A stretch of 64,000 nucleotides of DNA from Candidatus Polarisedimenticolaceae bacterium (GCA_021647945.1 JAKITT010000005.1:1-64000), one strand, 5' to 3'; shown: positions 29,158 through 46,459, counted from the first letter of the stretch. Notes: generated from the sequence alone by a model not told the origin. A program made the numbers and translations.

Positions 29158-29535
29158 TTGCCCCATTTACATCATCGCTGTCTCATATCCATTATCACCC
29201 TCTTTTTTTGCGCTCTTTTTGGCACTAATACGCTCGCCGAAGAGAAGGGGCACGAGGCGTGTATCAACTGCCATGTCGCAGCAGATCCAGATAAGAGCGA
29301 AGGCAATATTTCACTACTCTTCCCACAACTCGAACTCTGCCTAAGTTGCCATAAAGATAGAAGTGGCGATAGAGATCACGCCGTCGGCATAGAACCAGGC
29401 CCTGATGGCACGGGTGAGCTACCACTGGTCAATGGTCTTATCAGCTGTACAACGTGTCATGACTCACACATAAAAACAGCTGGCCTGCTGAGGTTACCGA
29501 AAGCTACTTTTTGTCTCGCTTGTCACAAGCTTTAG
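29158..29535 (+). CDS. Small secreted tetraheme cytochrome c
   Basis: A 125-residue exported protein with a signal peptide (IITLFFCALFGTNTLA) and four heme sites: CINCH, CLSCH, CTTCH and CLACH. The spacing and the pair CTTCHDSH ... CLACHKL match the doubled-CXXCH family. The start is TTG at 29158, supported by AGGAG 7 bases upstream; no ATG is available. It is a likely periplasmic electron shuttle. It is plus-strand, upstream of the signal peptidase gene, and sits beside the main multiheme cluster. Confidence 0.88.
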   Translation: MPHLHHRCLISIITLFFCALFGTNTLAEEKGHEACINCHVAADPDKSEGNISLLFPQLELCLSCHKDRSGDRDHAVGIEPGPDGTGELPLVNGLISCTTCHDSHIKTAGLLRLPKATFCLACHKL

Positions 29536-29784
29536 TGGTGTCTTGGAACCAAGAGGAGCGTAACACTCGCCTTCATCTCAATAGGTGCAGCACTTCGTTA
29601 ACAACGCCACAAACCGCTTGATTTTCGGCGACGACGGATAGATTTCCTGTACAATAACGACCACTTAGCACGCGCTTACTTGTCCCTATCTCCTTACAAT
29701 TAGCAGGTAAGCAAGAGAGTGCCATGATCTTAAATTTAGCATTCGCCCTCCCCACTAAAAAAACAACTCTGAGATAGACCCACA

Positions 29785-30690
29785 ATGCTTAACTCTTTGC
29801 GTACTTTAGCGGATCAAATCAATGAATCGGGAACAATAAAATCCCGCAGCCCACTTCTGGCACTGCTGATCTCAGTGTTTCCTGGGCTTGGTCAACACTA
29901 CGCGGGCTTCATTTTACGTGGCATTGTGCTCTATGTGGCTCTCATCATCATCTCTTGGCTCGCTGCTGTCGCTTTTATGTCCGTTGACAGTCGACTCAGC
30001 ACACTCTTCTTAGCCATTCCAATGCTCAGTGCCATCCTCATCGCACTTGATGCATGGGCCTGCGCCGCGAAACAGGAGAGTAATTATCGTCTCAAGTGGT
30101 TTAACCAAGCATGGATCTATATTGCTGTTACTCTATTTTTGATGGTTACCATCAACCCCGCCATGGATCTTCTGGTCGGTAAGCACGTCGTAAGGGCCTA
30201 CTATATCGATAACGACAGTATGTCGCCCACCGTTCTCAATCATGACATCCTGCTAATCAATCACCTCACCACCCCAGGCCGAGGTGATCTGGCGATCATC
30301 AACTTCTCCCAAACAGAAAAGCCATCTGGCCTAACCAAAGTGATGGATGGTCAGTTGATCCGTAGAGTAATTGCTGTCGCTGGAGACCGTGTCGAGATCA
30401 AAGGCCAAAAACTCTATATCAATGACCTACCTCTGGATGAACCCTATATAGGCCATGACAATCGCTTCCAACCAACCACCTTCGGCAATAACAATCTGGA
30501 TATGGCAGCAATAGAGGTACCTGACAATGCGGTTTATATCCTCGCCGACAACCGTAGCGCTGGACTAGATAGCCGTGTACTCGGCACTATCAACAGTGAT
30601 CTTATCGATGGCAAAGTGACCAAGGTGTTCTGGTCATGGAACTTAGACGAGGGACACTTCCAATGGAATAGAACGGCCTTGGGGTTATAG
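29785..30690 (+). CDS. lepB: Signal peptidase I with N-terminal multi-helix extension
   Basis: A 301-residue S26A-family peptidase. The first 140 residues contain about four hydrophobic segments (LLALLISVFPGLGQHYAGF, IVLYVALIIISWLAAVAFM and others), more than the two helices usual in LepB. The catalytic Ser is in DNDSMSPTVLNHDILL, the Lys in LIRRVIAVAGDRVEIKG, and the third box reads LADNRSAGLDSRVLG. It would cleave signal peptides on the periplasmic side. Its place between cytochrome genes hints at a dedicated role for secreted cytochromes, but that is inference. The gap upstream (29536-29784) shows no feature I can support. Confidence 0.88.
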   Translation: MLNSLRTLADQINESGTIKSRSPLLALLISVFPGLGQHYAGFILRGIVLYVALIIISWLAAVAFMSVDSRLSTLFLAIPMLSAILIALDAWACAAKQESNYRLKWFNQAWIYIAVTLFLMVTINPAMDLLVGKHVVRAYYIDNDSMSPTVLNHDILLINHLTTPGRGDLAIINFSQTEKPSGLTKVMDGQLIRRVIAVAGDRVEIKGQKLYINDLPLDEPYIGHDNRFQPTTFGNNNLDMAAIEVPDNAVYILADNRSAGLDSRVLGTINSDLIDGKVTKVFWSWNLDEGHFQWNRTALGL

Positions 30691-30707
30691 GATTCCGAAG
30701 AACTTGC

Positions 30708-31817
30708 TTACTGGAGCAAAGTAACACTACCATCTTGGGTCACGACAACAATTTTTCCATCAACAATGGCAGGCTGCGACCAAATAGAGCCGCTCATATA
30801 CTCCTCCCAAAGAAGCTTGTGCTGCTTTAGATCAACACCGATCAGACGTCCCGTTAGCGTTCCCAACACGCCAACCCCGTTGGCATCCACACTAAACCCG
30901 TGGCGAACGCCTTCATTCAGTGCCTGTTGCCAGAGGATTTTTCCCCACTTCTTATCAAGCCCATAAAGCGTCCCACGCCGACTGACCACCGCCAGTACAC
31001 CATCTATCAATACGGGGGAACCCTGCGGCCAATCATCCAGTTTTGTTGTCCACTCTATTTCGCCACTATCTGCCTGAATAGCATAAACATTACGGTCATA
31101 TACACCGAGATAAATCATCCCCTCGTCCAACATTGCAGCACCATAAACCGCCGAGCCCAGCACGCTCCTCCAGACAACCTTACCATCCTCTCTGTTAACG
31201 GCGTGCAAAACACCACTCTTAGTACTGAAGTAGACACGCTGGTCATCTACGGAGGGAGATGTATAGATGCCGCCATATTTATAATCCTTAGTTTGATACT
31301 TCCATATGAGTTTGCCGTCACTCAAATTCAGCGCATAGAGGTAGAGGTCATTGGAACCGATATAGATAACATCATCAACAATGACAGGAGAGGAGAGGAT
31401 CGTACCGCCAGTTTTTACCTGCCAAATCTCTTTACCACTCTCGGCATCAAGCGCAGTAATCACGCCATCTTTTGCTCCAACAATAACTACACCAGCAGCT
31501 AAAGCTGGCGTAGCAGAAATTGGCGCACTAAGCTTCGCCACCCACTTAACCCCCCCATCTTTGAGCTTGATAGCAGAAATTTTTGCATCGTGAGCAGCAA
31601 TATAAATTAGCCCGGCCGAGATAACAGGGGAAGCGAAGACCGCTGCACGGTCAACCTCAAGCTGCCATTTAATCGCCGGATTTTTTGTTAATTTTGAGGT
31701 CGATTGTGAACGATGATCAGCTGTGGAATTAATGTTCTTCCACTCATCTGCAAAACCCACACTTATGGTGTTGATTGAGATAAACAGAAAAATAGCGATA
31801 TGAAGTTGAAGCGACAT
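30708..31817 (-). CDS. Exported PQQ-type (BamB-like) beta-propeller protein
   Basis: About 369 residues with a signal peptide (LHIAIFLFISINTISVGFA), then seven or so repeats of the PQQ-blade pattern (GKEIWQVKTGG, DGKLIWKYQT, DGKVVWRSVLG, GEIEWTTKLDD, KILWQQAL). The ligands for a PQQ dehydrogenase are not evident, so this is probably a structural or scaffolding propeller like BamB. It lies directly downstream of the outer-membrane beta-barrel gene on the same strand, and a paralogue lies at 42248. A role in assembling or docking the cytochrome conduit is a reasonable guess. Confidence 0.85.
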   Translation of the reverse strand: MSLQLHIAIFLFISINTISVGFADEWKNINSTADHRSQSTSKLTKNPAIKWQLEVDRAAVFASPVISAGLIYIAAHDAKISAIKLKDGGVKWVAKLSAPISATPALAAGVVIVGAKDGVITALDAESGKEIWQVKTGGTILSSPVIVDDVIYIGSNDLYLYALNLSDGKLIWKYQTKDYKYGGIYTSPSVDDQRVYFSTKSGVLHAVNREDGKVVWRSVLGSAVYGAAMLDEGMIYLGVYDRNVYAIQADSGEIEWTTKLDDWPQGSPVLIDGVLAVVSRRGTLYGLDKKWGKILWQQALNEGVRHGFSVDANGVGVLGTLTGRLIGVDLKQHKLLWEEYMSGSIWSQPAIVDGKIVVVTQDGSVTLLQ

Positions 31818-31905
31818 TCTCAATAGACCTGCTAATCACTATAAAATAGAAACTGTTGTTACAAGCATACTCAATGCTCACCACAACACAAATTAGTATC
31901 TATCT

Positions 31906-33690
31906 TTAGAACCTGACACCAAAATATCGCTGTATCTCGATCGTAATTGTCTGATTCTCATAATCATCAGACCCACCGGTACTGCTATTTGAGTAGGCGT
32001 ATTTGAACGAAGAGACCCATCTGCCCAGTTTATAATCAAGATTAAAATCAGTATCGTATCTTTTATCACGATCCATTTGACTACCATAGCGCTCCACGTA
32101 CTTTGCATTTGCGCGAAAGCGCAGGTTTCTCAAACCAAATGGAGATGTATTATAAGTAAGTCGTGCCGTTTTTGACTTATTCTCATTAGAGGGACCGCCT
32201 GAAGTTGTGTTGTCACTCTCTGCGTAACCAGCTGATGCAATGAGTGATGAATAGACAGCTAGCCTATGTGTCCAGCCTACGTTAGTACTTGTAGAGCTGG
32301 CCTCTCTCTCTACCTTAACACCAGTGATCGAATCACCTTCAGAATCAGAATCAGAACGTTGCTTATAATTTACGGTGAGTTCTACATCATCTCGAATTGA
32401 AAAGCGGCTTTTCGCCCGATACAACAAACCATGGCTCATACTCGTCCGAGTTTTTCCATCAGAATAGCCAAAACTGTACGATATACCATCCCTCCACAAA
32501 GGAGATACACTTTGACTTAAACCAATACCAAAGCCATGACTTACTGTATAACCATCAGATGATTCACTAAGCACAGAGCCAATACCTAACGAATAACTTG
32601 AGGAGAGGTCATATATCCCCCACCGCTGCCCATAAGATAGACCGCCAGCTGCACTTGAGGCAACTTCACCGGAGCCCGCTGCTGATGAAGATGACGTTAT
32701 TGATAGCGAAGCATTTGAATTCCATCGCTCTGAAATTCTGTAATTCATAGAAGCACTGCCAGATGCTGAATTACTGTCATATGAATCTGACGTTGAAGCA
32801 CTTACAGATAAACCATAGTTGGTGTTAAACGCCTCTGTCATCCTTACGCTCAAGCTAGACGAAGCACGCAGTGATTGCATAGAGAGTTGCCGCCCTCCTC
32901 TGTCATCCAGCCTGTTAAAGTAGGATCCTTCTGCGGTTAGACCTATTTCAGGCGTTAAGTTAGTTCTATTATTTATGTACAAGCGGTGTTCTGATGATTG
33001 GCTATCACCCACTCTATTCTCTTTATTATCAAAATGGTAACCATAATTCAGATCAGCCCCGACACGATGACGCTTCGACTTGAACCTACGCTTGCCGATA
33101 ACCTTAAAGGAGTGATCTAATTGCTCTCTATCTGTCGACTCACCGGTCGATACAGCCTTTCTCATTCCATAGGTAAATCGAAGAGCTCCCAAAGTGCGCT
33201 GACTAAGCCCCCAGCGCATTCCAAGAACATCGCTAACGAGCTCATACGTAGGCGCGTAACTAGAGCTAACTGTCGTCACCGAATGATTCATATGCAAGAC
33301 AAAGGGATTTCTGCGTTTAGGCAGCCATGTAGTATAGAGACTATATTGAAGCGACCTAGGCCGCGAACTAACCTCGCTCCCTGTACTGTTTTCTGCCTGT
33401 CTGAAATTTAAACCCGCTGTAAACACCATAAAGCGCGGGTCCCATACGAAGCCCTTTATGCGGTTATTTATAATTGTGCTAAAGCTTTTGCTCTTTATCA
33501 CACTGGATTGATTCCCACTGCGACGATCTATCTGCCTGAGCGTCACTGAACCCGTAAAAGAGAAACTTCCTCTCGTGTACTCTCTGATCGACAGCGCACT
33601 TACATTTTGAGGAAAAAGAGTTATTAATAAAAGTGCCAGCAGGCCTATAATAACTACTCGCTCATACTTAGGCATCTCAATCATGAGCAT
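31906..33690 (-). CDS. Outer-membrane beta-barrel protein, candidate conduit porin
   Basis: About 594 residues. The ATG at 33690 follows GGGGAAT and leads straight into a signal peptide (VVIIGLLALLLITLFPQNVSA). The mature part is almost entirely alternating polar/aromatic strands (for example SLSYGQRWGIYDLSSSYSLG, GISYSFGYSDGKTRTSMSHG). It ends IEIQRYFGVRF, with the terminal Phe typical of BAM substrates. No cysteine-rich or TonB plug part is seen. Size and context (between a PQQ propeller and a multiheme cytochrome) fit an MtrB/OmbB-like barrel that sheathes cytochromes, but I cannot show homology to those families. Confidence 0.75.
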   Translation of the reverse strand: MLMIEMPKYERVVIIGLLALLLITLFPQNVSALSIREYTRGSFSFTGSVTLRQIDRRSGNQSSVIKSKSFSTIINNRIKGFVWDPRFMVFTAGLNFRQAENSTGSEVSSRPRSLQYSLYTTWLPKRRNPFVLHMNHSVTTVSSSYAPTYELVSDVLGMRWGLSQRTLGALRFTYGMRKAVSTGESTDREQLDHSFKVIGKRRFKSKRHRVGADLNYGYHFDNKENRVGDSQSSEHRLYINNRTNLTPEIGLTAEGSYFNRLDDRGGRQLSMQSLRASSSLSVRMTEAFNTNYGLSVSASTSDSYDSNSASGSASMNYRISERWNSNASLSITSSSSAAGSGEVASSAAGGLSYGQRWGIYDLSSSYSLGIGSVLSESSDGYTVSHGFGIGLSQSVSPLWRDGISYSFGYSDGKTRTSMSHGLLYRAKSRFSIRDDVELTVNYKQRSDSDSEGDSITGVKVEREASSTSTNVGWTHRLAVYSSLIASAGYAESDNTTSGGPSNENKSKTARLTYNTSPFGLRNLRFRANAKYVERYGSQMDRDKRYDTDFNLDYKLGRWVSSFKYAYSNSSTGGSDDYENQTITIEIQRYFGVRF

Positions 33691-33992
33691 TTTATTCCCC
33701 AATTTATTAACTAGGGAAGCATTTAGATGTCTGGAATGCATCAATAAATCGTCAAAACAGAGCTGGTGTAGTAACTTAATCAAAACATTTATTATCATAA
33801 TAATGATAAACGTTTCAGGCACTTAATGCATTAAACGCTTATCATGAGCCTGTTGCTGAACTGATTAATCACGAATGTAAATACAAATAGAAACATCGAT
33901 AAATATAACATTAACCGCACCCTATCCTCAATTAGGGTTTATATCCTGCCGACCCGGCCAACACTGTTTTTGAATAGTTTTAAGCCAACAAA

Positions 33993-34018
33993 AAAGGGGA
34001 GGTTTGCACCCCCCCTTT
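33993..34018 (-). terminator. Terminator after the tetraheme cytochrome gene
   Basis: On the minus strand AAAGGGGGGG-TGCAAA-CCTCCCCTTT forms a 10-base stem with one mismatch, followed by a run of Ts. It lies about 32 bases after the cytochrome stop and separates that gene from the beta-barrel gene. Confidence 0.8.
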
Positions 34019-34049
34019 CTCTTCAAGTAAGACTAGTCTGTTTTAGTGC

Positions 34050-34799
34050 TTACTTCTGATGACACATCAGACACAATGCACTGCCGTCCATAGACATACG
34101 CAAGAATGGCTGTTCACCATCGGTATCATTGTGTGGATCATGGCACGATGGGCACTGAATATAACCCGCAAACAACTTAACATTAGTCAGAGATGAAGCT
34201 TCTCTCAGACCACCATTGTCGGCACCATCCATTGATTGTGCTTCTATATAGCTAAAGTTAACAGGATGGTCATTTTCCAGAGTCCCGTCTGAGAAGAGAT
34301 TGGTTGACCAATCAGCCCCCAAACCTCTACCTGCCCCGACCGCATCGCCACCCGTCATAGTGATGATAGGGTTGCCATTTGATGGATTGTTGACCGCATT
34401 GATCGCAATGGTACCATCATGACAAGAGAGACAGAGGTTACTGGTCACTGCTGTCGCTGCAGTCACACCACCCAGATCTGCTATGCTAAGACCTTGATCG
34501 CCAGTTTGCGAGCCATCACCGAAGGTAGGGCTGGTGTATACCCCGTAAGACGCTACTGTTGAGAGATCATGATTCCATAGTGGAATCACGTCATTTTTGA
34601 TCGCGTTATGCGGGGTGTGACAGTAGATACAAATTTCAGGATTGTCAGTTGAATAGATTCTATTCGCACCATTCACACCAGTAATTGGCTGGCCTATAGA
34701 ACTCAGATTATGCTTGGTGTTTGTAATACTAGCTGATGCCTGAAACGACAGGCCCAGAATCGCTGCGGTCACCGCAACTGTAAAAATTGATTTATTCAT
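34050..34799 (-). CDS. Secreted tetraheme cytochrome c (TKHNLS family)
   Basis: 249 residues with a signal peptide (VAVTAAILGLSFQASA). Four heme sites are seen: CIYCH, CLSCH, CPSCH and CLMCH. The opening (TKHNLSSIG, then EICIYCHTPHNA, LWNH, LCLSCHDGT) is shared with the N terminus of the 11-heme protein at 59422, so the two belong to one family. The ATG at 34799 follows GGAGGG; a longer frame to 34826 is less likely. It is probably periplasmic or at the outer membrane, downstream of the NHL lipoprotein gene and upstream of the barrel gene. Confidence 0.9.
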   Translation of the reverse strand: MNKSIFTVAVTAAILGLSFQASASITNTKHNLSSIGQPITGVNGANRIYSTDNPEICIYCHTPHNAIKNDVIPLWNHDLSTVASYGVYTSPTFGDGSQTGDQGLSIADLGGVTAATAVTSNLCLSCHDGTIAINAVNNPSNGNPIITMTGGDAVGAGRGLGADWSTNLFSDGTLENDHPVNFSYIEAQSMDGADNGGLREASSLTNVKLFAGYIQCPSCHDPHNDTDGEQPFLRMSMDGSALCLMCHQK

Positions 34800-34997
34800 A
34801 ATAATACCCTCCAGGGTCTCCTCCAAATATTTAGATTCAAGTCATGGTAGTGCGCATTAATTTATTATCTTTAGCGCCTTTTGCCCACGTCTCGAACCAA
34901 AGACTCTCACATTTTTTTCGATGATTCAAGTATTTTAACCAGCCATCCAACTAAGCTGATCGACAATAAACACTCTCATTCGCCCTACAATATTAAA

Positions 34998-36101
34998 TTA
35001 TTTGCCTTCAGCAGACTTACCCTCAGCAGACTTACCCTCAGCAGCCTCACCTGCTTCCGCTTCCACCCCATCTTTAAGGTATTGAAAAATCTGGATACGT
35101 GCATTAATTGAGTCCGCAACATAAATTTTATCTTTTGCATCGATAAATATCCCTGTTGGCAGCCAAAACATGCCTGGACGCCTACCTAGCGCGCCAATAA
35201 AAAGCATCAATTTCCCCTCTTTATTGAATATCTGGTAGTTATTAAACGCCGCATCAAGTGCATAAAGATTCTCTTCGCTATCCAGTGCAATACCCTTAGG
35301 TCGTGCCAGTGAGCCATATGAATCGCCCAACTTGCCTACACTGCGGATAAACTCACCCTCAGGCGAGAAGACCTGAATACGAAAATTACCACTATCAACG
35401 ACATAAAGGTTGCTCTCTTTATCCAACGCTAAGCTAATGGGGAAATTCAGTTCACCGGGTGCACTCCCCCGCTCTCCCATTTCATCAATAAACTCACCAT
35501 CCAAGGTATAGATCAGGATGCGATGGCTCGGCGTATCACTGACATAAAAACGGTTGTTTTTCTCATCAATTACTAGCCCTGTTGGACGCTGTAACCCCTC
35601 GCCATCGCCCAACGTTAGCAGTGTCTTCCCCTCTTTTGAGTAAATATTTACCCGACCTGCAGCAGAATCAGTCACAAATATCCGCTCCTGACTATCGATA
35701 CGGACCTCAAGCGGAGTCGTCAACCCGCCCATCGCATCGGTAGGGAATGGGTAGACACTCTTTTTTTCAAAGTCAAACACTACCAGTGCATGTAATTTAG
35801 TATCTGTTACATACATCAGTTTTCCATCACGACTGGTTGTTACGCCATAAGGCTTCAATAACTGCAGCCCTTTCTGGTCGATTCCAAGCAGTGCTGCCTT
35901 AAAGCTGGTCGTGTCTGAAAAATCTGCTTGGCCTGAATATGAGTCAATATATCGTATTCTTGGCTGTTCTGGCGGCGCTGGCCAGAATAGATCAACCACC
36001 TCTTTTTTAGCTGGCCCACTGCTACAGCCAACTAACGTCAACGCACAAACAGATATAACAGCCCAACTCATTACACTAAAGACGCCTTTGCATCTTTGCA
36101 T
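34998..36101 (-). CDS. NHL-repeat beta-propeller lipoprotein
   Basis: About 367 residues. The start at 36101 follows AAGGTG. A lipobox ends the leader (VCALTLVGCSSG). The text after it, FWPAPPEQPRIRYIDSYSG, is typical of six-bladed NHL lipoproteins found with multiheme cytochromes in metal-reducing bacteria. NHL blades follow (RIFVTDSAAGRVNIYSKEG, NRFYVSDTPSHRILIYTLDG, NLYVVDSGNFRIQVFSPEG, KIYVADSINARIQIFQYL). The extreme C terminus is a tandem AEGKS repeat. The protein probably scaffolds or docks cytochromes at the membrane. It precedes the tetraheme gene; a decayed copy of the same pair lies at 61470. Confidence 0.88.
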   Translation of the reverse strand: MQRCKGVFSVMSWAVISVCALTLVGCSSGPAKKEVVDLFWPAPPEQPRIRYIDSYSGQADFSDTTSFKAALLGIDQKGLQLLKPYGVTTSRDGKLMYVTDTKLHALVVFDFEKKSVYPFPTDAMGGLTTPLEVRIDSQERIFVTDSAAGRVNIYSKEGKTLLTLGDGEGLQRPTGLVIDEKNNRFYVSDTPSHRILIYTLDGEFIDEMGERGSAPGELNFPISLALDKESNLYVVDSGNFRIQVFSPEGEFIRSVGKLGDSYGSLARPKGIALDSEENLYALDAAFNNYQIFNKEGKLMLFIGALGRRPGMFWLPTGIFIDAKDKIYVADSINARIQIFQYLKDGVEAEAGEAAEGKSAEGKSAEGK

Positions 36102-36469
36102 CGTATTCACCTTTTTTGTTCTAGTAAGCAATTTAACTCTCCGCAATTCAGTATTTAAAGTCTGATCACGAACTGACAACTGAAACCTTGTTTTGTTCTG
36201 AATTCTGGCAACAGAACTGAAGCATCCGGCCAATAGTACCCTAGCTCTTGCAACAGAAAAAGTGATGGATATTATTTTCATGCCGAACCACACAACATTT
36301 ACCCAAATTTCAGGAATCAGAATCAACAGCATTTCCAATAACCCTCCCTCTGCGTGATAATCACCCCATATTAATAATGAGGTATGGTTTTACCGCCATA
36401 CATTAAGGAACTTATCCAGCTTTCTGCTGGTCGCACTCACCATATAACATCAATAACCTGGAGTTTTTC
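36102..36469. other. 368-base divergent intergenic region
   Basis: Spacer between the NHL lipoprotein (minus) and the NrfJ-like protein (plus). An open frame continues from the lipoprotein gene to 36338 but has no signal or family match, and I take it as non-coding. I see no clear repeat or RNA. Confidence 0.45.
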
Positions 36470-37170: not shown

Positions 37171-40100
37171 TTAATTCCAAGGCCTGAGGCGTCGCCTACT
37201 CTTCTTATCGCTTCGTTCCGAATGGAAATATTTATAGCGTCGTAGACTCTCGATCCCATGGCAGTCACTACAGACGTTGCGCGCACTCTTAAAGCGCAAG
37301 AAGCTACTGCGGTTATTTCCTTCCAACTGCCTGCCCGGCCCCTGCCGATCATTCTCCGGCGTCCATGAATGCGGGTTATGGCATGTTGGACAGGTGATAA
37401 TACCGGCATTACTTTTTTGCCCACTCGGATCATAGAGAGGAACATAGTTCTTTGATTTTTTTCTTGTTGCCTCACCGACAAGCACCGTTTCAGGATGACT
37501 AAACTCCTCTACGATTTTGTCATGCCCTACTCTGCCTTCATCATGACAATCAAGACAGAGCCGCTCAGGCAGCATCTCGCTCTTGTCACTCAACCCTCTT
37601 GCCCATAGCTGATAACCGCCTTCCATCGAGTCATGCGGTACATGACAAGCACTACAGACACCGCTCTCTCCCACAGTCTGTTTCAGGCGATTCTTCTCTT
37701 CTTGACCAGTGATACGCATGTCATGTTCGGTATTTACCACGTTGGCCTTTTGCGTATGGCACGTCACACATAGACCCGATGTCGGAAGATTTGATCTCCG
37801 AAGAAAACTATTACTGCCATCTCCCTCTAAATTCTTACTCGCCCTGGGCGCCCCTTTTTCAGGGTCCCATCGGTGAGGGTTGTGGCAGGTAGAACATGTA
37901 ATATCACCTTCTGGTGAACGTTCACCCTCATTGGTAAATAGTGGTAACTCTGTATCAATTTTACCCTTGCCATAAAATCTTGCCGTCTCCAGCTTTAGTG
38001 TCGCCTTTGCCTCTGAGACCTTTTTATTCATCGGGTGTTTAGGGCCGTGCAATCTCTTTTTCGAGGCTGATTTTCGCCTCGCGTGACAACCATTACAAAG
38101 CGCCTCATTTCTATTTTTTCCGGAACCTACACCTCGACTCCATAGTCCATCACCCCAAGCGTTATGTACCATGTGGCACGCCCCACAAACGCCGGTTTCA
38201 TCGGCCGTTAACCGTTCCATATTAATCTCACGGGGTGCTGAAACGCGCAGATCATGATCGGAGCCAAGAATCATCGCATTCACTTCATGGCACGTTGCAC
38301 ACAGCGTTGCATCATCATCGTTGGCTTGTCGTAAAAAGCTATTGAAACGATCGCCCTCAATCTTTTTCTCACCTGGGCCGCGTTCCGAGCCGGGTGACCA
38401 GCTATGCAGATCATGGCAGGTGGCGCATGAAACCCCGCCTTGCCGGCTTCTTCGACCATTTTTCTCATAGAGAGGCAGCGTATGCTCTTTGCCCACTTTA
38501 AATATTGGTACACCACCCATCGGGTGTGACTCATCCCCCGTCATCTTCTCTTCAGCGAGATGCCCTCGACTATGGCAGGCGTTACACATCTGCTCAATGA
38601 CATCTTCACCAACGCCGAGGTTACGTCCCCACAACTTATCACCATCAGCATTATGAATGAGGTGACATGCCCCACACACGCCTGATCGCTCAACCCCCTG
38701 ACCATGGCTGTTTTTTGATCTATCCGCTTCCAAGCTGAGGTCATGTTCAGTACCCAGAATGGCCCCCTGCTTCTGATGACATGATCGACACAACGCCTGC
38801 TGCTTGGTTTCGCTCTTTCTCAGAAAACTGCTGTTGCCGTCACCATCAACATCCTTCCCCCCGCGCTGATCTGACGCTACAGCCCAGAGGTGCGCATCAT
38901 GGCAGGTGGCACAAGAGACCTTGCCCGCCACATCGACATCACCTTCAACATTAAACAGCGGCAAGCCGCTCTTCTCGCTCACCGCTTGATCAACACCAAC
39001 ACCTGTTGGATGGCTATGCTCTCCAGTCAACGCCTCTTCCGCCATCTCACCTTTGGCATGACAACTGATACAGAGCTGATCTAAACTTTCACCCTCAACC
39101 TGCCTAGCCCACATCCTTGGGCCATACCCTTTATGCATAAAGTGACAGCTCTTACAAACACCTCCATTTGCCGCCGCCTCACCATCGGCAGATGGCTCTT
39201 TTGAGTTAAAGCGTGGGATATCATGTTTGGTGCGCAGGATGGTCTCTTTTGACGAGTGGCAGGTCATACAGAGCTTGTCACCACCATCGTTTACTACCAA
39301 TAGATGATTCTTTTTAGTGCCATTGTGTGGTGAATGGCAGGTTCGGCAGTTAACCTTTTTACCACCGCCTAAATAGGGTTCTTCACCATTATCCCACCGC
39401 GCGGGGAGCTTGGCATCGTCCGTAATATCAACATCTACCGGATGCGAATGGCGACGAAGCACTCCGTCACTGCTCATATCTGGCGAGAGTCCATGACAGG
39501 TCTCACACAGTTTCGACTGCGGCACCCCCTCTTCACTATTTGGAATGATCAGAAAGTTATCACCGGTGCTGCCATGTGCGGTGTGGCATGTTTCACAGAT
39601 GACTGTGTTCTTCACACCCACCTTGGCACCGGCATCTAGAATCTCTTGTGGCAATGCATCAAACTCAACATCAACTGGATGCATCCCCTCATCAGCGCCA
39701 TCATCTTTATCACGATGGCAACGCTTACACATGGATGAGCCTACATTGGCTTCACGCAAAAAAATGGCCGATGCCATATCGACACGCGTATCCACGCCAT
39801 GCGAGGTGTGACAGGTAGCACATGTCATTTTACCCTCGGCATCCAGCGGAAACTCTTCTGGTATGGTCACATTCTCAGAGGGTTTGATGCCTGACTTATG
39901 TTTGCTGGTCTCCCACACTCTAAAGCGAGAGTCGGCGATTGAGCCGTCATGACAGCTGTAACACATCATCTCATCAGCAGCGACACGCGCTTCTGGCATC
40001 TCCATCAGGAGATCTTTTTTCTCTTCATTGATGAAGTCATCCATCCAGCGAAGGTGACACATTGAACACTCTTTAGATGAGTTCTGACCACCTTCGGGCG

Positions 40101-40173
40101 CAGCAACGGCACTGATCGGCAATAGGAGTAGACAGAGAAAAAACAGACCACCCAGCACACGATAACTATTCAT
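37171..40173 (-). CDS. Secreted 24-heme cytochrome c with four tandem tetraheme modules
   Basis: 1000 residues with a signal peptide (LFFLCLLLLPISAVAA). I count 24 CXXCH motifs, from CSMCH (residue 36) to CSDCH (near 966). The last 16 hemes fall into four repeats of about 160 residues beginning near 335. Each reads GVCxxCHxxH, xLCxxCH, xxCxTCHxxH, an SSFLR or NSFLR box, then xxCxxCH and, in three of them, TEHD or SDHD. The first 8 hemes are less regular. The C terminus is Arg/Lys-rich (KKSRRRLRP). No membrane anchor or lipobox is seen, so it is periplasmic or passes to the surface. Its start overlaps the NHL protein stop (ATGA), so the two are translationally coupled. It is probably the long-distance wire of the conduit. 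Confidence 0.93.
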   Translation of the reverse strand: MNSYRVLGGLFFLCLLLLPISAVAAPEGGQNSSKECSMCHLRWMDDFINEEKKDLLMEMPEARVAADEMMCYSCHDGSIADSRFRVWETSKHKSGIKPSENVTIPEEFPLDAEGKMTCATCHTSHGVDTRVDMASAIFLREANVGSSMCKRCHRDKDDGADEGMHPVDVEFDALPQEILDAGAKVGVKNTVICETCHTAHGSTGDNFLIIPNSEEGVPQSKLCETCHGLSPDMSSDGVLRRHSHPVDVDITDDAKLPARWDNGEEPYLGGGKKVNCRTCHSPHNGTKKNHLLVVNDGGDKLCMTCHSSKETILRTKHDIPRFNSKEPSADGEAAANGGVCKSCHFMHKGYGPRMWARQVEGESLDQLCISCHAKGEMAEEALTGEHSHPTGVGVDQAVSEKSGLPLFNVEGDVDVAGKVSCATCHDAHLWAVASDQRGGKDVDGDGNSSFLRKSETKQQALCRSCHQKQGAILGTEHDLSLEADRSKNSHGQGVERSGVCGACHLIHNADGDKLWGRNLGVGEDVIEQMCNACHSRGHLAEEKMTGDESHPMGGVPIFKVGKEHTLPLYEKNGRRSRQGGVSCATCHDLHSWSPGSERGPGEKKIEGDRFNSFLRQANDDDATLCATCHEVNAMILGSDHDLRVSAPREINMERLTADETGVCGACHMVHNAWGDGLWSRGVGSGKNRNEALCNGCHARRKSASKKRLHGPKHPMNKKVSEAKATLKLETARFYGKGKIDTELPLFTNEGERSPEGDITCSTCHNPHRWDPEKGAPRASKNLEGDGSNSFLRRSNLPTSGLCVTCHTQKANVVNTEHDMRITGQEEKNRLKQTVGESGVCSACHVPHDSMEGGYQLWARGLSDKSEMLPERLCLDCHDEGRVGHDKIVEEFSHPETVLVGEATRKKSKNYVPLYDPSGQKSNAGIITCPTCHNPHSWTPENDRQGPGRQLEGNNRSSFLRFKSARNVCSDCHGIESLRRYKYFHSERSDKKSRRRLRPWN

Positions 40174-41114
40174 CGCCCAATCTCATAAAGCGTCACCCGA
40201 TGAGCAAACATCTCCACCACGTAGAGAAGCCCTTTTTGATCAAAATGAAGCCGAGTGGGGGTGATAAACTTAAGCAGCTGGCCCTCTTCATCCAACAGTA
40301 CTGAGAGAAACCGGCCTTGATTGTCGAAGACCTGGATTACACCGAGGAAAGAGTCCGAGATATAGACCTCATCTCTGTCGTCGATGGCGACCCCTTTGGG
40401 GCGAAACAGCTCTCCCCGCTCTACACCCCACTTGCCAATACTGGCATCAAAATGGCGTTTCTCATCTGGCAGGTAACTCTTCACCGTCGTATTAATCACA
40501 TCAACAACAAATATCCGCCCCTGCCGGTCAAGCTTTATCGAAAAGGGCCAGCGCAACTCACCCCCCTTCATTCCCATGCCGCCGATATAGCGTTTGAAGC
40601 GTTTCTGTTTTAGGTCATAGACCAGCACTTTGTGGTTATCATTGTCCACCACGTAGAGTTTGTTACGCACGTCGTCAATGGCGACATCGGTGGGATCAGG
40701 TTTGCGGCCATCACCGTCATGCGGCAGCTCTATATGGTGCAGGTACTGTCCGTCAGATGAGAAGAACTGAACCCGTGAATTGCCCGTATCAGCGACATAG
40801 AGGTTCCCATCACGATTCATCGCCATGCCCAGTGGGTTGTTAAACTCACCCGGCTTGCTGCCACCTTTACCAAATTGGTTTAGATATTGCCCTTGGGCAT
40901 CATAGTGAACGACTCTGTTATTGACGCCATCCAATACAAATATTTCACCACGGCTGTTGACCAGCACATCACTGGGGTGGCGCAACTCCGGGCCTGAGCC
41001 AATACCAATAGTGGCAATTTTCTTGGCCGTTATCGCACCTACGGCCTGCAATGGCATGCCGACGAGAATAAGGGTGAGGCAGAGGAACCACGGCACAGAT
41101 AGATGATAACTCAC
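40170..41114 (-). CDS. Exported NHL-repeat beta-propeller protein
   Basis: 314 residues with a signal peptide (VPWFLCLTLILVGMPLQAVGA) and no lipobox. About six NHL blades are visible (EIFVLDGVNNRVVHYDAQG, NLYVADTGNSRVQFFSSDG, KLYVVDNDNHKVLVYDL, RIFVVDVINTTVKSYLPDE, EVYISDSFLGVIQVFDNQG, LLYVVEMFAHRVTLYEIG). The start is GTG. The stop overlaps the 24-heme cytochrome start by four bases, so the two proteins are made together and probably bind each other. The 168-base gap upstream holds no gene I can support. Confidence 0.88.
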   Translation of the reverse strand: MSYHLSVPWFLCLTLILVGMPLQAVGAITAKKIATIGIGSGPELRHPSDVLVNSRGEIFVLDGVNNRVVHYDAQGQYLNQFGKGGSKPGEFNNPLGMAMNRDGNLYVADTGNSRVQFFSSDGQYLHHIELPHDGDGRKPDPTDVAIDDVRNKLYVVDNDNHKVLVYDLKQKRFKRYIGGMGMKGGELRWPFSIKLDRQGRIFVVDVINTTVKSYLPDEKRHFDASIGKWGVERGELFRPKGVAIDDRDEVYISDSFLGVIQVFDNQGRFLSVLLDEEGQLLKFITPTRLHFDQKGLLYVVEMFAHRVTLYEIGR

Positions 41115-41282: not shown

Positions 41283-42245
41283 TTATGGCAACTGAAATTT
41301 CTTGAGATCCTTGGTGTCATGACAGCCCAGGCAGATTTTCGAGTTATCTTTGCTAATTCTCAAACGCTTATGGGCATCCGCACCAATGTTGGCCTCATTC
41401 CTTGGCTGCACACCCAGCTCATGCGGGTTATGGCATGTGCCACAAAAAACATTACCCGTCACCAATTCCAACGGAAGAATCGCCGCGTCATCTCGCTGCC
41501 CCATCCTTTTTACCATCTCTGCATCAGGTTTTTTGGCATGGTATATCGGGCTGCCATTTTCCTCAAAGCCCATCACACAACCGGCCGCATAGGCGTCATT
41601 GGTATGGCAGCGTAGGCAGATTTTATCTACACGATCAGAGTCGAAGGTAACATCTGCAATGCTCTTTGCGGTTTTACGGTTGGGCACCCGATCATGACAA
41701 TAGGTACAAACTTCTGTATCGAGCTCACCCTCATCATTAATCTGATTGTGCGGGTTAAACTTTTTATATTTATTCCGCTCATGGCAGTTGTAACAGAGAT
41801 CTGTCCGCTTCTCATAGGGGGCACCACGGTGAAATAGACGGTTCTCCTTCTTACGATCGAACTCTTCACTAAGGCACTGGTATTTCATCTCATGACAGAC
41901 TGCACAGGTAATCTTGCCCTCTTCATTCAATCCGCTAAGAAAACTCTCTGGCATCTTCTCCAGCATCGGCTGCGTGGGCAACATGCCACTTGAGTGGATA
42001 TATTTATCTTTTGAAATGGTGATATGGCAGCGGTTGCAGAGTAGATTGACATCACCGTTGTATTTCAGCGCTAACTCCTGATCATCTTCAGGCACCTTGT
42101 CATGACACTGTAGACAAGATGACTCTTTGTCAGACCAATGCGGGTTCACATATGAGAACCAATCATCAGCCGCCATCAGCGGGGCAGCACTGAGAAGAGA
42201 GATCACCCCGACCATTAAAATCTTTACCAGCAACTGCTTCATCAC
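41283..42245 (-). CDS. Secreted octaheme cytochrome c
   Basis: 320 residues with a signal peptide (LVKILMVGVISLLSAAPLMA). Eight heme sites are seen: CLQCH, CNRCH, CAVCH, CYNCH, CTYCH, CLRCH, CGTCH and CLGCH. The pattern CGTCHNPHELG ... RLRISKDNSKICLGCHDT is of the doubled-CXXCH type. It contains no OTR/HAO-like catalytic Lys or Tyr motif that I can see, so it is an electron carrier rather than a nitrite or hydroxylamine enzyme. It follows the PQQ propeller by 2 bases, in one operon. Confidence 0.92.
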   Translation of the reverse strand: MMKQLLVKILMVGVISLLSAAPLMAADDWFSYVNPHWSDKESSCLQCHDKVPEDDQELALKYNGDVNLLCNRCHITISKDKYIHSSGMLPTQPMLEKMPESFLSGLNEEGKITCAVCHEMKYQCLSEEFDRKKENRLFHRGAPYEKRTDLCYNCHERNKYKKFNPHNQINDEGELDTEVCTYCHDRVPNRKTAKSIADVTFDSDRVDKICLRCHTNDAYAAGCVMGFEENGSPIYHAKKPDAEMVKRMGQRDDAAILPLELVTGNVFCGTCHNPHELGVQPRNEANIGADAHKRLRISKDNSKICLGCHDTKDLKKFQLP

Positions 42246-42247
42246 GC

Positions 42248-43510
42248 CTATTCCTTACCCCAAGCAAACAGATAACCATTCAAACTACCAATATAGAGCT
42301 GCTCATCGACTATGGCAGGAGATGAGTGAAATGCATCTCCCGGCACCTCCTCTTTCCAGAGGATATCTCCATCCTCCAGACCCACGGCATAGAGCACGCC
42401 CTCTTCTGTCGCAACATAACCAATACCTTGAGCGATCGCCATGCTCGAACTGATTTTAGAACCCAAGTTTTGCTGCCACTCAATGGAACCATTGTCTGCA
42501 TCAAAACTGGTCAATTTTCCCTCTTTATCCCCGACATAGACCTGCTCACCATCTGACACCGGCGCGGCAAACACCCAATCACCCAACGGCACCTTCCACT
42601 CAAGCTCACCATCTTCAGCATTTAATGCATAGACCATTCGGTCATAGCCACCGATAAAGAGCCTCCCATTATTCACCGTGGGGGTTGAGTAAACAGCGGA
42701 GTGGGTCTTAAAGGTCCAGACAATCCGGGCCAAGGTGATATCTATGGCCGATACTGTGAACGATTTTTCAGCCACATATGCCATATTCCCTACGATTGCC
42801 GGTGATGAATATACGCCGCTGCTATTTAGGCTTTTAGAGAGGGCCGTCTTCCAAATCAGATACCCCTTCTCCATATGTAGTGCATAGAGATAACGGTCAT
42901 TCGAGGCAAAATAGACGATGCCATCAACCACCGCCGGTGATGTGGTGATTTTTCCGGCTGTCTTATATTTCCAGATCAGTTCGCCACTCTCAGCATCTAG
43001 ACAGTAAAAGTGACTATCCTTGCCACCAAAAAAAACGCGCCCGTCTTTGACGGCCGCAGATGAGATAATTCCAGCTTCTGTTTCAAACAACCAGCGCTCA
43101 TCACCGCTCTCTCTATCTAATGCGTAGAAAACCCCATCAAGCGAACCAAAATAGATGGTTGATTGGGTCACAGCGGGGGAGGCGTAGATGGCATCGCCAG
43201 CACGATAGTCCCAAAGCAGTTCTAATGGTGGGGAGAGTTTTGACCCATTCTGCGCACTGTGTGTAGGGTCGGCAAGAAACATCGGCCAACTTGATCCCTC
43301 TTTGCTGGCCGCATCAAGTGTCATAGGGAAGAGAATCAGCGCTATTAGCAGTGGTGGCATAGTCGCACTCAATGAGCGGGCCAACCGGCTTATCAGGCCA
43401 GCAAAACCGACACTACCGCCCCCCTTGACAGAAGGGGTATGGGGAAACCAATTTGAGTCCATTTTTTCGGTCATTAGAGACGAACAATTACCCATTTTGT
43501 TTAACAACAA
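42248..43510 (-). CDS. Exported PQQ-type beta-propeller protein
   Basis: Up to 420 residues. The mature part has seven PQQ-blade repeats (GDERWLFETEAG, GELIWKYKTAG, LIWKTALS, RIVWTFKTHS, GELEWKVPLGD, GSIEWQQNLGS, GDILWKEEVPG) and is a paralogue of 30708. The true start is unclear. The leader-like stretch MPPLLIALILFPMTLDAAS begins at 43360, and the residues before it look non-coding in composition, so 43360 is a good alternative. It lies 2 bases upstream of the octaheme gene. Confidence 0.82.
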   Translation of the reverse strand: MLLNKMGNCSSLMTEKMDSNWFPHTPSVKGGGSVGFAGLISRLARSLSATMPPLLIALILFPMTLDAASKEGSSWPMFLADPTHSAQNGSKLSPPLELLWDYRAGDAIYASPAVTQSTIYFGSLDGVFYALDRESGDERWLFETEAGIISSAAVKDGRVFFGGKDSHFYCLDAESGELIWKYKTAGKITTSPAVVDGIVYFASNDRYLYALHMEKGYLIWKTALSKSLNSSGVYSSPAIVGNMAYVAEKSFTVSAIDITLARIVWTFKTHSAVYSTPTVNNGRLFIGGYDRMVYALNAEDGELEWKVPLGDWVFAAPVSDGEQVYVGDKEGKLTSFDADNGSIEWQQNLGSKISSSMAIAQGIGYVATEEGVLYAVGLEDGDILWKEEVPGDAFHSSPAIVDEQLYIGSLNGYLFAWGKE

Positions 43511-43573
43511 TGAGCGGAAAAAGAGGCCATATCACTCTCTCCGCACGACGATACGGAAGCAGTGCAACGAAGA

Positions 43574-43612
43574 GGCGGTGGCTGAGTAGGAGACCTATTC
43601 TCAGCCACCGCC
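43574..43612. terminator. Strong intercistronic hairpin between triheme and PQQ-propeller genes
   Basis: A perfect 13-base GC-rich stem, GGCGGTGGCTGAG, with 13-base loop and matching arm CTCAGCCACCGCC. It begins 12 bases after the triheme cytochrome stop. No full T-tract follows on the minus strand, so it may act as a partial terminator or an mRNA-stability hairpin that sets the inner-membrane module apart from the downstream genes. Confidence 0.6.
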
Positions 43613-43623
43613 CTTAAGAGATT

Positions 43624-44445
43624 TTACTCTGCTTCACGCCTTCGTTGACGATCACGAAATCTCGCATCTGGATCGAACATTGTTGGCAGATAGAATTTCT
43701 TATATTTTGTAATCATCGTTACAACTTCACCACTCTCCAATCGGTTTACCACAACAGGAGAGTACTTCAGCTTTGCAAAATCAAGAATACCATCTTTATC
43801 GTGGCATTCATTGCAGAAGATTGGTTTGGTTGAAATTTCTTTATGAATTCTGACCTTAGCCTCGGCCTGTTGATCCGCATTAAAGGTTGCTCGCAGCTCC
43901 AAATACTCTTCTATAAACGTCTTATCCGCAGACTCATCAAGCCGTCGACTGACACCATTTTCCATCCTAAAGGGCACAATCATACCGCCGTAGTTACCCG
44001 GCTTTCCCTCCAGCGTTAACAGCTCTTGGCCTGTTTTGTTATCTAGCCATTTATAGGTTATTTGATCCTCTTCAGCAGGACGAATATGACACACCTCACA
44101 GGCAGTGAAGTAGGCATGTGCATTAAGAAATGCTCGCACATCGGGTGCCTTAGAATGAGGATAATTGCCATGGCACTTCAGACAGAGCGACGGTGATTCC
44201 GCCCCGGCCCTGACAGCAGCATCAAGATTGTGGAAATGCTCATTGCCAACCCCAACGCCCAATGCAATTCGCTCCATCTCCGTCTGATCCAGTGCCGTAT
44301 TAGAGAAGCCCGTATCATAGATGCCGCGAAAAAAGGTGAGCCAAATCAACCACAATGCAAAAGCCGCAAGTAATAGGAAGACCCCCCCCATCAAAAAATC
44401 GATAAGGAGCCGCTTTACTGGGTGTATATTTCCGTGATCATGCAT
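43624..44445 (-). CDS. Membrane-anchored triheme cytochrome c
   Basis: 273 residues. One N-terminal membrane helix (LLIDFLMGGVFLLLAAFALWLIWLTFF spans about 13-40) anchors a periplasmic domain with three heme sites: CLKCH, CEVCH and CNECH. Conserved His residues outside the motifs could be axial ligands. The start overlaps the cytochrome b gene by 8 bases. With the cytochrome b and octaheme proteins upstream, it looks like part of an inner-membrane quinol:cytochrome module, similar in layout to Cbc-type complexes of Geobacter. That comparison is inference from gene order. Confidence 0.87.
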   Translation of the reverse strand: MHDHGNIHPVKRLLIDFLMGGVFLLLAAFALWLIWLTFFRGIYDTGFSNTALDQTEMERIALGVGVGNEHFHNLDAAVRAGAESPSLCLKCHGNYPHSKAPDVRAFLNAHAYFTACEVCHIRPAEEDQITYKWLDNKTGQELLTLEGKPGNYGGMIVPFRMENGVSRRLDESADKTFIEEYLELRATFNADQQAEAKVRIHKEISTKPIFCNECHDKDGILDFAKLKYSPVVVNRLESGEVVTMITKYKKFYLPTMFDPDARFRDRQRRREAE

Positions 44446-45169
44446 CGTCGCGTTTCTCTACATCTTTTTCTGTCGCAGCAGCAGTGGCTGTGGCCTCTTC
44501 TGCCTCCAATCTATCTAACCAGAGCGGATGCTCTTCAAGCATGATCTCTTCAGAGATCTGGCCATCAATAAACGCCTTATTCATTGGATAGACGTGCGGG
44601 TTATAGTGAACGGTGAAGATGTGTCCAACGATAATCGCAAGTGCAGCCAGCGTCGCCTCCCCCAGATGGAGAGCATCTGCCACATCAAGATAGAACTTAG
44701 GCCATAGCCACTCTGTCCACATCATGGTTCCAGTGAGAATGACGATAAACATGCCAAAATAGACTGAAAAATATTCGAGCTTCTCCATATAGGTGAAACG
44801 ATCCATTTTAGGCCGCGCCTTTCTAAAGCCGAGCATAAAACTAACATTCTGACCGGCATCCACACCATCCTTCAGCCGTGGAAGCATATCTCTAAGCCAG
44901 CTCCGCCCCTCTTCTGAAACCACCACGTAGACCATGTGATAGAGGCAGACCAGCGTCACCGCAACACCTGCAATACGATGCACCACACCACGCCAATAGA
45001 AAATGGTATTACCTGCTGAACCAAAGAGGTCAATCGCCCAACGCTCACCCAACAGCATAAAGCCGGTAAGGATCAGCAGCCCTGTTGAGGTGAATAAGAT
45101 GACATGCTGAATACGCTGGCTCACCGTCAGCCGCAGAAAAGTTCTCTGTTTTTTACCATGATGACTCAT
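44438..45169 (-). CDS. Membrane cytochrome b (b561/HydC-like)
   Basis: 243 residues with four hydrophobic helices (HVILFTSTGLLILTGFMLLG, VVHRIAGVAVTLVCLYHMVY, YFSVYFGMFIVILTGTMMW, LAALAIIVGHIFTVHYNPH). His residues in the first, second and fourth helices are placed for two b hemes. The C terminus is Glu/Ala-rich and cytoplasmic. It would link the quinone pool to the c-type cytochromes encoded on either side. It overlaps both neighbours (1 base with the octaheme gene stop, 8 bases with the triheme start), the tightest packing in the window. Confidence 0.9.
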   Translation of the reverse strand: MSHHGKKQRTFLRLTVSQRIQHVILFTSTGLLILTGFMLLGERWAIDLFGSAGNTIFYWRGVVHRIAGVAVTLVCLYHMVYVVVSEEGRSWLRDMLPRLKDGVDAGQNVSFMLGFRKARPKMDRFTYMEKLEYFSVYFGMFIVILTGTMMWTEWLWPKFYLDVADALHLGEATLAALAIIVGHIFTVHYNPHVYPMNKAFIDGQISEEIMLEEHPLWLDRLEAEEATATAAATEKDVEKRDDA

Positions 45170-46260
45170 CAGTGATGCCCTCCCATCTTACTTGCACGGC
45201 GTGATGCATAGAGATCAAGCAGCCGATGCATACCGAGACCACCAACCACACCGACAATCAATATCTTGTAGATCAAATTTATCAGGTTTAGAACCCAGGT
45301 CTGAAAGGCCAACTCGGCCTGTGAGACCTCCTCGCCTGCCCGTGCCTGTCGTCCCGCACTCTGCAACGATGCATGCACCTTGCCTTTGCTGGCAAACTCC
45401 TCTTTTGCACCCGCATGACAACCCTGCTGAGCACAGGTCTCAAGCTTATGTTCCGGGCTCACTGGCGATACATCATCTCGACTAGATTTCACTCGATGCG
45501 GAGAGAAACCAAGCCCATAGGGGGCATGACAGTTGAGACAGTTAGCAACCTCTTCATCACCATAAACAATCGCCTTTCCGTGGAAGGTATCTTTAAAACC
45601 CACCACGACATCCAGATCATGGCGTTCCATCATCGCCTGATCTGCGTGACATTTACTACAGAGCGCGACCACCTCTTTAGAGGAACGGCGTGTTGAAGCC
45701 CGATAGAACATGTGGCGGTAGAAGCGTTCAGTCCACTCCTTTGACTCGTGGCACTCCAGACAGATTTTTATGAATTTCATCGAAGCTATCTGTTCATCCA
45801 TACCGATTTGGTAGGCCTTATTACTATGGCAATCCTTACAATTGGGCAGATCTTCCATATGCTCATCAGTGCGTGACCCTTTATAACCATGCGCACTGAA
45901 ATCGAGATCTTTCTTGATCGCTTTATGCGAGAAGTCGCGACCTGTCGAAGGGTCTTTTAGATGGCAATCTTTAGCACAATTGACTGCCTCAACGTCGGTA
46001 TGTGGAATCTCCTCCACACCATCATGACAGCTCTTACAACGTAATTTTCCATGGTATGAGGCCTTATACTGCTCCTCATTCACATAGAAAACCCGTTTCT
46101 TGGCATTCTGATTCTCATCTTTGCCATACCGCCCCAACCCTGCGTACTTATGACACATGAGACAGTTCTCATCATCGGTTGCGTAGACTGAGTTCGGCGC
46201 ACCCAACAGGATCACACCACTCAATATGCAACAGACCGTAAAATAGACTCTATTTATCAT
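45169..46260 (-). CDS. Membrane-anchored octaheme cytochrome c with two expanded heme motifs
   Basis: About 363 residues. A signal peptide (YFTVCCILSGVILLGAPNSVYA) is followed by six CXXCH sites (CLMCH, CKSCH, CKDCH, CLECH, CSKCH, CLNCH). There is also one CX3CH (CAKDCH) and one CX4CH (CAQQGCH), giving up to eight hemes. Near the C terminus one membrane helix (LINLIYKILIVGVVGGLGMH) anchors it. The ATG at 46260 is preferred over the upstream TTG. It is the first gene of the minus-strand cytochrome operon, directly coupled to the cytochrome b gene (TGATG), and the two likely form the quinone-facing entry or exit of the chain. Confidence 0.9.
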   Translation of the reverse strand: MINRVYFTVCCILSGVILLGAPNSVYATDDENCLMCHKYAGLGRYGKDENQNAKKRVFYVNEEQYKASYHGKLRCKSCHDGVEEIPHTDVEAVNCAKDCHLKDPSTGRDFSHKAIKKDLDFSAHGYKGSRTDEHMEDLPNCKDCHSNKAYQIGMDEQIASMKFIKICLECHESKEWTERFYRHMFYRASTRRSSKEVVALCSKCHADQAMMERHDLDVVVGFKDTFHGKAIVYGDEEVANCLNCHAPYGLGFSPHRVKSSRDDVSPVSPEHKLETCAQQGCHAGAKEEFASKGKVHASLQSAGRQARAGEEVSQAELAFQTWVLNLINLIYKILIVGVVGGLGMHRLLDLYASRRASKMGGHH

Positions 46261-46376
46261 TTTCAATATTCAAACCCGACCTTTCATCATGCAGCGAACA
46301 AAATTCCATACCACATCCACCGCCTCACCAACGCGTACGAACAAACCTCAATACCACGATACTACGCTAAAGCACT

Positions 46377-46388
46377 AGGGTATACCCT
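46377..46388. promoter_or_regulatory. 12-base perfect palindrome, possible operator
   Basis: AGGGTATACCCT, a perfect inverted repeat between the divergent cytochrome operon and the diguanylate cyclase gene. It is centred about 28 bases downstream of the start site predicted from the FNR-like box. It could bind a repressor; no regulator is identified. Confidence 0.4.
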
Positions 46389-46417
46389 TGTTTATTGGCA
46401 TATTTATCAGGGTACTC

Positions 46418-46459
46418 ACTATGCCTAATTTTTCTCTGATCAGTATTGACCTCAATCAA
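46418..46459 (-). promoter_or_regulatory. FNR/ANR-like box and class II promoter for the multiheme operon
   Basis: On the plus strand TTGACCTCAATCAA (46446-46459), read on the minus strand TTGATTGAGGTCAA, matches the FNR consensus TTGAT-N4-ATCAA at 9 of 10 defined positions. On the minus strand a -10-like CATAGT lies at 46423-46418, centred 32 bases from the box centre, as expected for a class II FNR promoter (box at -41.5). The predicted start is near 46411, about 150 bases before the octaheme ATG. This suggests induction at low oxygen. Confidence 0.55.

Follow-up and report, generated by a model that had tools for sequence, protein, structure and literature searches.

A putative composite electron conduit related to Uet, with a dedicated quinone module and an OmcE-like cytochrome, in a Candidatus Polarisedimenticolaceae bacterium

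A 64,000-nucleotide stretch of DNA from a Candidatus Polarisedimenticolaceae bacterium, a gammaproteobacterium (GCA_021647945.1 JAKITT010000005.1:1-64000; hereafter the window) carries, at positions 29158-46459, a cluster of multiheme cytochrome, propeller and outer-membrane barrel genes whose products probably make up the whole route of electrons between quinones and a wire of OmcE-type cytochromes outside the cell. Every gene listed for this region by an earlier reading made without database searches (the sequence-only reading) was recovered on re-translation as an intact open reading frame (ORF) in its listed place. From 46266 downwards the minus strand encodes c365, cytb and c273, which overlap, followed by pqq2, c320, nhl314 and c1000; beyond the plus-strand gene h218 the minus strand continues with nhl446, c258, the barrel gene and pqq1, after which come plus-strand genes for an S26 signal peptidase and a small tetraheme cytochrome, g1. 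Pfam models recognise two NHL propellers, two PQQ_2/BamB-type propellers, doubled-CXXCH cytochromes and a cytochrome b (PF01292). The cluster contains 49 CXXCH motifs, four each in g1 and c258, 24 in c1000, eight in c320, three in c273 and six in c365. The latter has one CX3CH and one CX4CH motif in addition, which brings it to eight sites and the cluster to 51, matching the figure of about 51 hemes given before. These variant motifs look real because eight sites are kept in all 20 near-complete, unfused c365 homologues, either as six CXXCH with CX3CH and CX4CH or as seven with CX3CH. Nor are the heme motifs a product of chance, since a genome-wide count gave 109 instances of the related doubled-CXXCH pattern, C-x-x-C-H-x-x-H, compared with two of its reverse.

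The tetraheme c258 matches OmcE, the nanowire cytochrome of Geobacter, over its full length (PDB 7tfs, E 2.9e-26), with a value of 7e-53 by family profile; a second structural relative is 9yuq, a 16-chain cytochrome entry (E 4.5e-21). Invariant in 13 of 13 sequences of its family are the four CXXCH motifs and, outside them, exactly four histidines, one per heme. In OmcE, one distal histidine is supplied by the neighbouring subunit (PMC12307469), and the c258 sequence retains all four candidate distal ligands, including whichever serves the neighbouring subunit. c258 is thus a presumed nanowire subunit, with filament formation as a prediction. Further OmcE-like cytochromes are encoded on contigs C2, C14, C151 and C159 of the same genome, where no barrel gene was seen adjoining; the C2 copy is 54% identical to c258.

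An OmcE-like unit also forms part of an 11-heme cytochrome encoded further along the window, which matches OmcE over residues 11-228 (E 9e-23) and carries seven hemes in the remainder. Several loci of Nitrospirota/Thermodesulfovibrionales have adjoining but separate genes for the 4-heme part and the 7-heme part. A second copy of the 11-heme gene lies on the same contig past the end of the window (G000:C47:63850-65928); its product is 85% identical to the first and can be aligned, for most of its length, with relatives that show a match to the UetJ-like protein of the gammaproteobacterial locus L038 as well. Though encoded outside 29158-46459, the 11-heme cytochrome belongs to the conduit system. 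A ResB/CcsB-type maturation pair sits between the two copies; the same pair stands behind the 11-heme gene in Thiobacillus 65-29 (L106), and in Sedimenticola HyVt-446 (L039) at least ResB lies downstream of that gene. Another doubled-CXXCH multiheme protein is encoded at 53929-54753, between the conduit and the 11-heme gene.

The 638-amino-acid (aa) barrel ORF was matched by no Pfam or NCBIfam model. An AlphaFold2 model based on an alignment of 24 homologues, which were collected by profile search, has 28 strands and an empty pore with no plug (mean pLDDT, the predicted local distance difference test, 90.4). Foldseek matched this model mostly to LptD and to receptors for siderophores or cobalamin; the Mtr-complex protein MtrB came second by E-value and had the highest TM-score among the matches listed (0.50/0.46). 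The predicted fold identifies the ORF as a genuine outer-membrane barrel, as had been claimed before. The family is rare in Gammaproteobacteria (5 of 369 genomes), and an OmcE-like cytochrome is encoded in 58 of the 58 named loci that have it.

At the inner membrane, cytb resembles FdnI (PDB 1kqf chain C, E 6.7e-4). Its residues His22, 64, 78, 168 and 183 are conserved and lie in or near predicted membrane segments, so that two b hemes are possible, as five such histidines suffice. A 640-aa protein of the same genome (L030) consists of a c365-like nine-heme part fused to a cytb-like part, in that order. With a multiheme c and an FdnI-type b component, c365 and cytb make up what appears to be a split CbcL-like quinone module, which would be linked to the quinone pool through cytb; c273 adds an N-terminal membrane anchor and three hemes.

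The propeller nhl314 and the 24-heme c1000 form a stable pair. In a paralogue on C56, at L029 8406-10880 (G000:C56), an NHL propeller and a 12-heme doubled-CXXCH cytochrome are naturally joined in one protein. The other NHL protein, nhl446, is a probable lipoprotein with a lipobox-like LVGC and a true start probably near residue 80; it shows 38% and 36% identity with two of the NHL proteins encoded at L038. Its identification as ScyF was rejected (181 bits against a cut-off of 350) and the likeness put down to generic NHL similarity. The two propellers that the sequence-only reading had assigned to pyrroloquinoline quinone (PQQ) are of the PQQ_2/BamB type by Pfam, but PQQ chemistry or a redox role finds no support: the two contain 0 and 2 cysteines, none of them adjacent, and thus lack the adjacent-cysteine disulfide of the PQQ site. 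A role as scaffold or in assembly is our guess. The S26 signal peptidase gene adjoins pqq1 in the sister species, and in Thiobacillus 65-29 it is found downstream of the conduit; its product is possibly a dedicated maturation protease. Tubeworm symbionts (L084, L091), G008 (L173) and Nitrospirota (L101, L110) have h218 homologues next to loci of Uet type. A LysR regulator with a CysB-like N-terminus and a probable sensor are encoded directly upstream of the conduit in L042-L044 and L046; the present window has its own CysB at 52404-53378.

Gene content and order recur in other genomes. Sister species G001 has the barrel, pqq1, S26 peptidase and small tetraheme genes in the same arrangement, on a contig that begins at the barrel. 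A scan of named genomes for the nhl446 family yielded 78 loci. Among these, nhl446, c258, the barrel, pqq1, c320, c365, cytb and c273 are found together in Sedimenticola HyVt-446 (L040/L039), another Sedimenticola (L043), a Polarisedimenticolaceae metagenome-assembled genome (MAG; L042), a gammaproteobacterial MAG (L044) and Thiobacillus (L048), accompanied by nhl314 and the 24-heme gene where the fetched stretch reaches far enough. The cluster is partly rearranged in Sulfurimicrobium (L047) and Dive96_bin4.167 (L046), the cytb of the latter being 78% identical to that of the window, and related composites exist in Desulfobacula (L112) and Thiobacillus 65-29. Regions from five gammaproteobacterial families (L168-L172; L113 and L168 are the same contig, counted once) encode an OmcE-like cytochrome, NHL, barrel, NHL, 11-heme, octaheme, c365, cytb, c273, NHL and an 18-24-heme cytochrome. 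Gene order is fixed in four of the five, one of which has a second quinone module inserted, while in L172 the halves are turned towards one another and the stretch fetched showed no octaheme.

Because the 58 barrel loci were seeded through the NHL gene, two scans without NHL seeding were added over the 369 gammaproteobacterial genomes. OmcE-like proteins occur in 52 of them, and in 41 of these 52 (counted by hand) single and fused copies are close together, mostly at 4-11 kb; a 24-heme homologue is present in 10 genomes, all within the 52 (P about 1e-9). By sequence, the outer-membrane part of the system is spread over many phyla. In Nitrospira/Thermodesulfovibrionales (L079-L081, L094), several loci encode two 12-heme proteins (~280-300 aa) and an 11-heme protein (~320 aa), all compact and very heme-dense, upstream of the barrel.

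Table 1. Features of the conduit cluster and associated genes in the window
Feature	Coordinates	Strand	Basis
c365, octaheme c cytochrome with C-terminal membrane anchor, inner-membrane module	45169..46266	-	motifs; homologues adjoin cytb in composite loci
cytb, FdnI-type cytochrome b, presumed diheme quinone-reactive subunit; overlaps neighbours	44438..45169	-	PF01292
c273, c cytochrome with three hemes, anchored in the membrane at its N-terminus	43624..44445	-	CXXCH count, anchor
pqq2, PQQ_2/BamB-like propeller with a guessed role in structure or assembly	42248..43510	-	Pfam
c320, secreted octaheme cytochrome	41283..42245	-	CXXCH count, homologues
nhl314 (NHLb), secreted NHL propeller; overlaps c1000 gene by 4 bases	40170..41114	-	Pfam
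c1000, secreted cytochrome of doubled-CXXCH type with 24 hemes; presumed wire in the periplasm	37171..40173	-	CXXCH count, Pfam
h218, secreted two-repeat protein, function not assigned	36470..37126	+	ORF; homologues beside Uet-type loci
nhl446 (NHLa), NHL propeller, likely lipoprotein	34998..36338	-	Pfam; lipobox-like LVGC
c258, OmcE-family tetraheme cytochrome, presumed nanowire subunit	34050..34826	-	homology to OmcE
28-strand outer-membrane barrel	31906..33675	-	start set at Met50 of ORF 31906-33822; AlphaFold2, Foldseek
pqq1, PQQ_2/BamB-like propeller, directly after barrel gene, position kept in relatives	30708..31823	-	Pfam
S26 signal peptidase	29785..30690	+	conserved near conduit in relatives
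g1, small secreted tetraheme cytochrome, kept in sister species	29158..29535	+	CXXCH count
11-heme cytochrome, UetJ type: OmcE-like domain (residues 11-228) and heptaheme part	59422..61458	-	OmcE match, 11 CXXCH
cytochrome c maturation pair of CcsB/ResB type, flanked by the 11-heme copies	61771..63800	-	recurs at L106, L039

In the path that we consider probable, cytb would exchange electrons with ubiquinone and with the membrane-anchored hemes of c365 and c273; the periplasm would be crossed via c320 and c1000, the latter paired with NHLb; the heptaheme part of the 11-heme cytochrome would fill the barrel, with NHLa lipoproteins as a scaffold at the outer membrane; and the OmcE-like domain of the 11-heme protein, held at the barrel, would seed or dock a filament of c258. 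These parts may work as a single complex. The quinone-linked trans-envelope conduit of the sequence-only reading is supported, and the doubts raised along with it have receded: gene order is conserved in many relatives, and the barrel resembles MtrB in fold and is conserved together with the cytochromes. The parts it named were all found; the OmcE homology, the 11-heme gene and the relation to Uet had escaped it. More specifically, and with appreciably less confidence, the cluster might encode a genetic 'socket' for an OmcE-type nanowire, in which the OmcE unit of the 11-heme protein would be the built-in first link and the filament would continue the heme chain through the barrel. In this same reading the chain would extend via the 24-heme periplasmic wire to the quinone module, forming one continuous heme path from the inner membrane to the outside. 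Several points tell against the proposed path. The whole set is known from genes alone and no member protein has previously been studied; homology of c258 to OmcE is no proof of polymerisation; the 11-heme gene is not next to the barrel gene in this genome but 26 kb off; the AlphaFold2 model of the 11-heme protein had a pLDDT of 48 and was left unused, so that its assignment as a plug rests on gene association; and the barrel profile was iterated on the same 58 loci that had been found through the NHL gene.

It is important to weigh this path against readings that dispense with one or other of its parts. The conduit could be the same while c258 and the OmcE-like domain act as monomeric surface cytochromes, in which case the system would be an ordinary Uet-type porin-cytochrome complex with no filament. 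UetA has been described solely as an extracellular tetraheme (PMC10734462), and the fused domain shows that such a fold is able to function in a setting other than a simple filament subunit; however, the nearest solved relative of c258 is a filament protein, the next has 16 chains, and every ligand histidine is kept, including the inter-subunit one, which makes this reading unlikely. Less credit still is due to the notion of a 24-heme module that works independently, as a PCC3-like or storage system, and merely adjoins a Uet-like conduit. A paralogous 24-heme module does exist on another contig (C14), and the periplasmic cytochromes of PCC3 likewise have 21-27 hemes (PMC10734462), but the two halves are contiguous in the five gammaproteobacterial families, with one order in four of them, and occur together in Thiobacillus 65-29. 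That the barrel is an unrelated porin, or a secretion or assembly pore placed among cytochrome genes by happenstance, is highly improbable: the lack of a family model and the prevalence of receptors and LptD among the Foldseek matches would fit such a pore, whereas the OmcE-like companions in all 58 loci across many phyla, the missing plug domain, the overall rarity of the family and the top TM-score of MtrB among the listed matches speak against it.

The direction of electron flow along the preferred path is not determined. Single-family searches of the genome, which is 94.6% complete, found UbiG and no MenD over the cut-off, the futalosine route lying outside these searches; they also found no dsrA over the cut-off and no RuBisCO. 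An rDsr sulfur oxidiser and a Calvin-cycle autotroph therefore found no support, and the sulfur-oxidising lifestyle claimed earlier, left with an SQR-like gene at 4586-5869, has become doubtful. UbiG without MenD points to ubiquinone; with this carrier, inward flow from a low-potential donor is downhill, while outward flow needs a high-potential acceptor, ubiquinol being a poor donor for low-potential ones. Inward flow is thus slightly favoured, a preference tempered by the missing RuBisCO, which argues against simple electroautotrophy. In an outward circuit, ubiquinol would be oxidised and electrons passed to Mn(IV), electrodes or partner cells, as by CbcL and OmcE in Geobacter, and we rate this somewhat below an even chance. 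CbcL serves outward flow in that genus and a CbcL-like module is present here; the lack of RuBisCO also suits this direction, and the OmcE family serves outward flow in Geobacter (PMC12307469). Apart from the quinone evidence, the Uet relatives speak against it: they have been connected with the uptake of electrons (PMC12575090) and are found in lineages whose names refer to the oxidation of Fe or S.

The means by which a cytochrome nanowire is attached to the cell and brought into electrical contact with it is a named open question (PMC12307469). With a wire subunit, a dedicated barrel, an 11-heme cytochrome bearing an OmcE-like domain and a quinone module encoded together, in an order kept across families, this question can be put to the test on named genes, and Geobacter nanowires become linked to Uet, a conduit of bacteria that feed on electrodes. 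In the literature searched, which left the original Tenderiales and OmcE papers uncovered, there was no statement of a homology of UetJ and the tetraheme of Uet to OmcE, and priority is accordingly uncertain.

Among known systems, MtrCAB, MtoAB and PioAB share with the cluster an empty large barrel, to which MtrB came closest in TM-score among the listed matches, although MtrB has 26 strands and the window barrel 28. Membership of the Mtr family fails: PF11854 (MtrB_PioB) has no match anywhere in the genome, and the best score for a DmsE/MtrA-family decaheme is 86 bits, where the cut-off is 192. PCC3 of Sideroxydans and others, by its description, resembles the cluster in combining a porin, a very heme-rich presumed periplasmic cytochrome (21-27 hemes; PMC10734462) and a b-type inner-membrane protein. 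The same description sets it apart, with a barrel of up to 42 strands and an extracellular cytochrome of 10-85 hemes beside the porin, where the window has a PF01292 b protein and only the 4-heme c258 adjoining its barrel; membership of PCC3 fails as well. OetABI of the partners of anaerobic methanotrophic archaea (ANME), compared by description only, was set aside since that description mentions no propellers, and the four-gene conduit of Methylobacter is MtrAB-type, hence a different system. A Ca. Manganitrophaceae MAG (L115) encodes a set of NHL, OmcE-like, barrel, NHL and 11-heme proteins, possibly the PCC_1 (porin-dodecaheme) proposed for manganese oxidation.

CbcL is a multiheme c domain fused to a diheme b domain in the Geobacter inner membrane; the window module, likened to it by this architecture, is split into two genes and has the triheme c273 in addition. 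With the OmcE nanowire of Geobacter sulfurreducens, c258 shares full-length homology, four hemes and four distal histidines, but its gene stands beside a dedicated barrel gene and is paired with a protein that has an OmcE-like domain built in, an arrangement known here from genes. The closest counterpart is the Uet set described in Ca. Tenderia electrophaga/Tenderiales and also in Gallionella, with the tetraheme UetA, the barrel UetC, the NHL proteins UetH/I and the undecaheme UetJ (PMC10734462); L038 was equated with Uet via this description, and gene-by-gene homology was read against L038. The counterpart of UetA is c258, OmcE-like here and in L038; UetH/UetI correspond to NHL proteins present here (nhl446); and UetJ corresponds to the protein with 11 CXXCH motifs, 26 kb away. 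The relation of the window barrel to UetC is weak but significant (profile A1 on the L038 barrel, 4.2e-9; pairwise, only 4e-4 over 65 aa). Uet further includes the peptidyl-prolyl isomerase (PPIase) UetB, the small periplasmic trihemes UetD/E/G, and UetF, none of which is encoded within 29158-46459, and c273 has no significant match to UetD/E/G-type trihemes. Because the PPIase and trihemes are missing there, we file the cluster as a variant and not a member of Uet. Since it extends beyond Uet in its CbcL-like quinone module, octaheme, 24-heme cytochrome and two BamB-like propellers, the most fitting name for it, as far as its genes indicate, is that of a composite conduit related to Uet and equipped with a separate quinone module.

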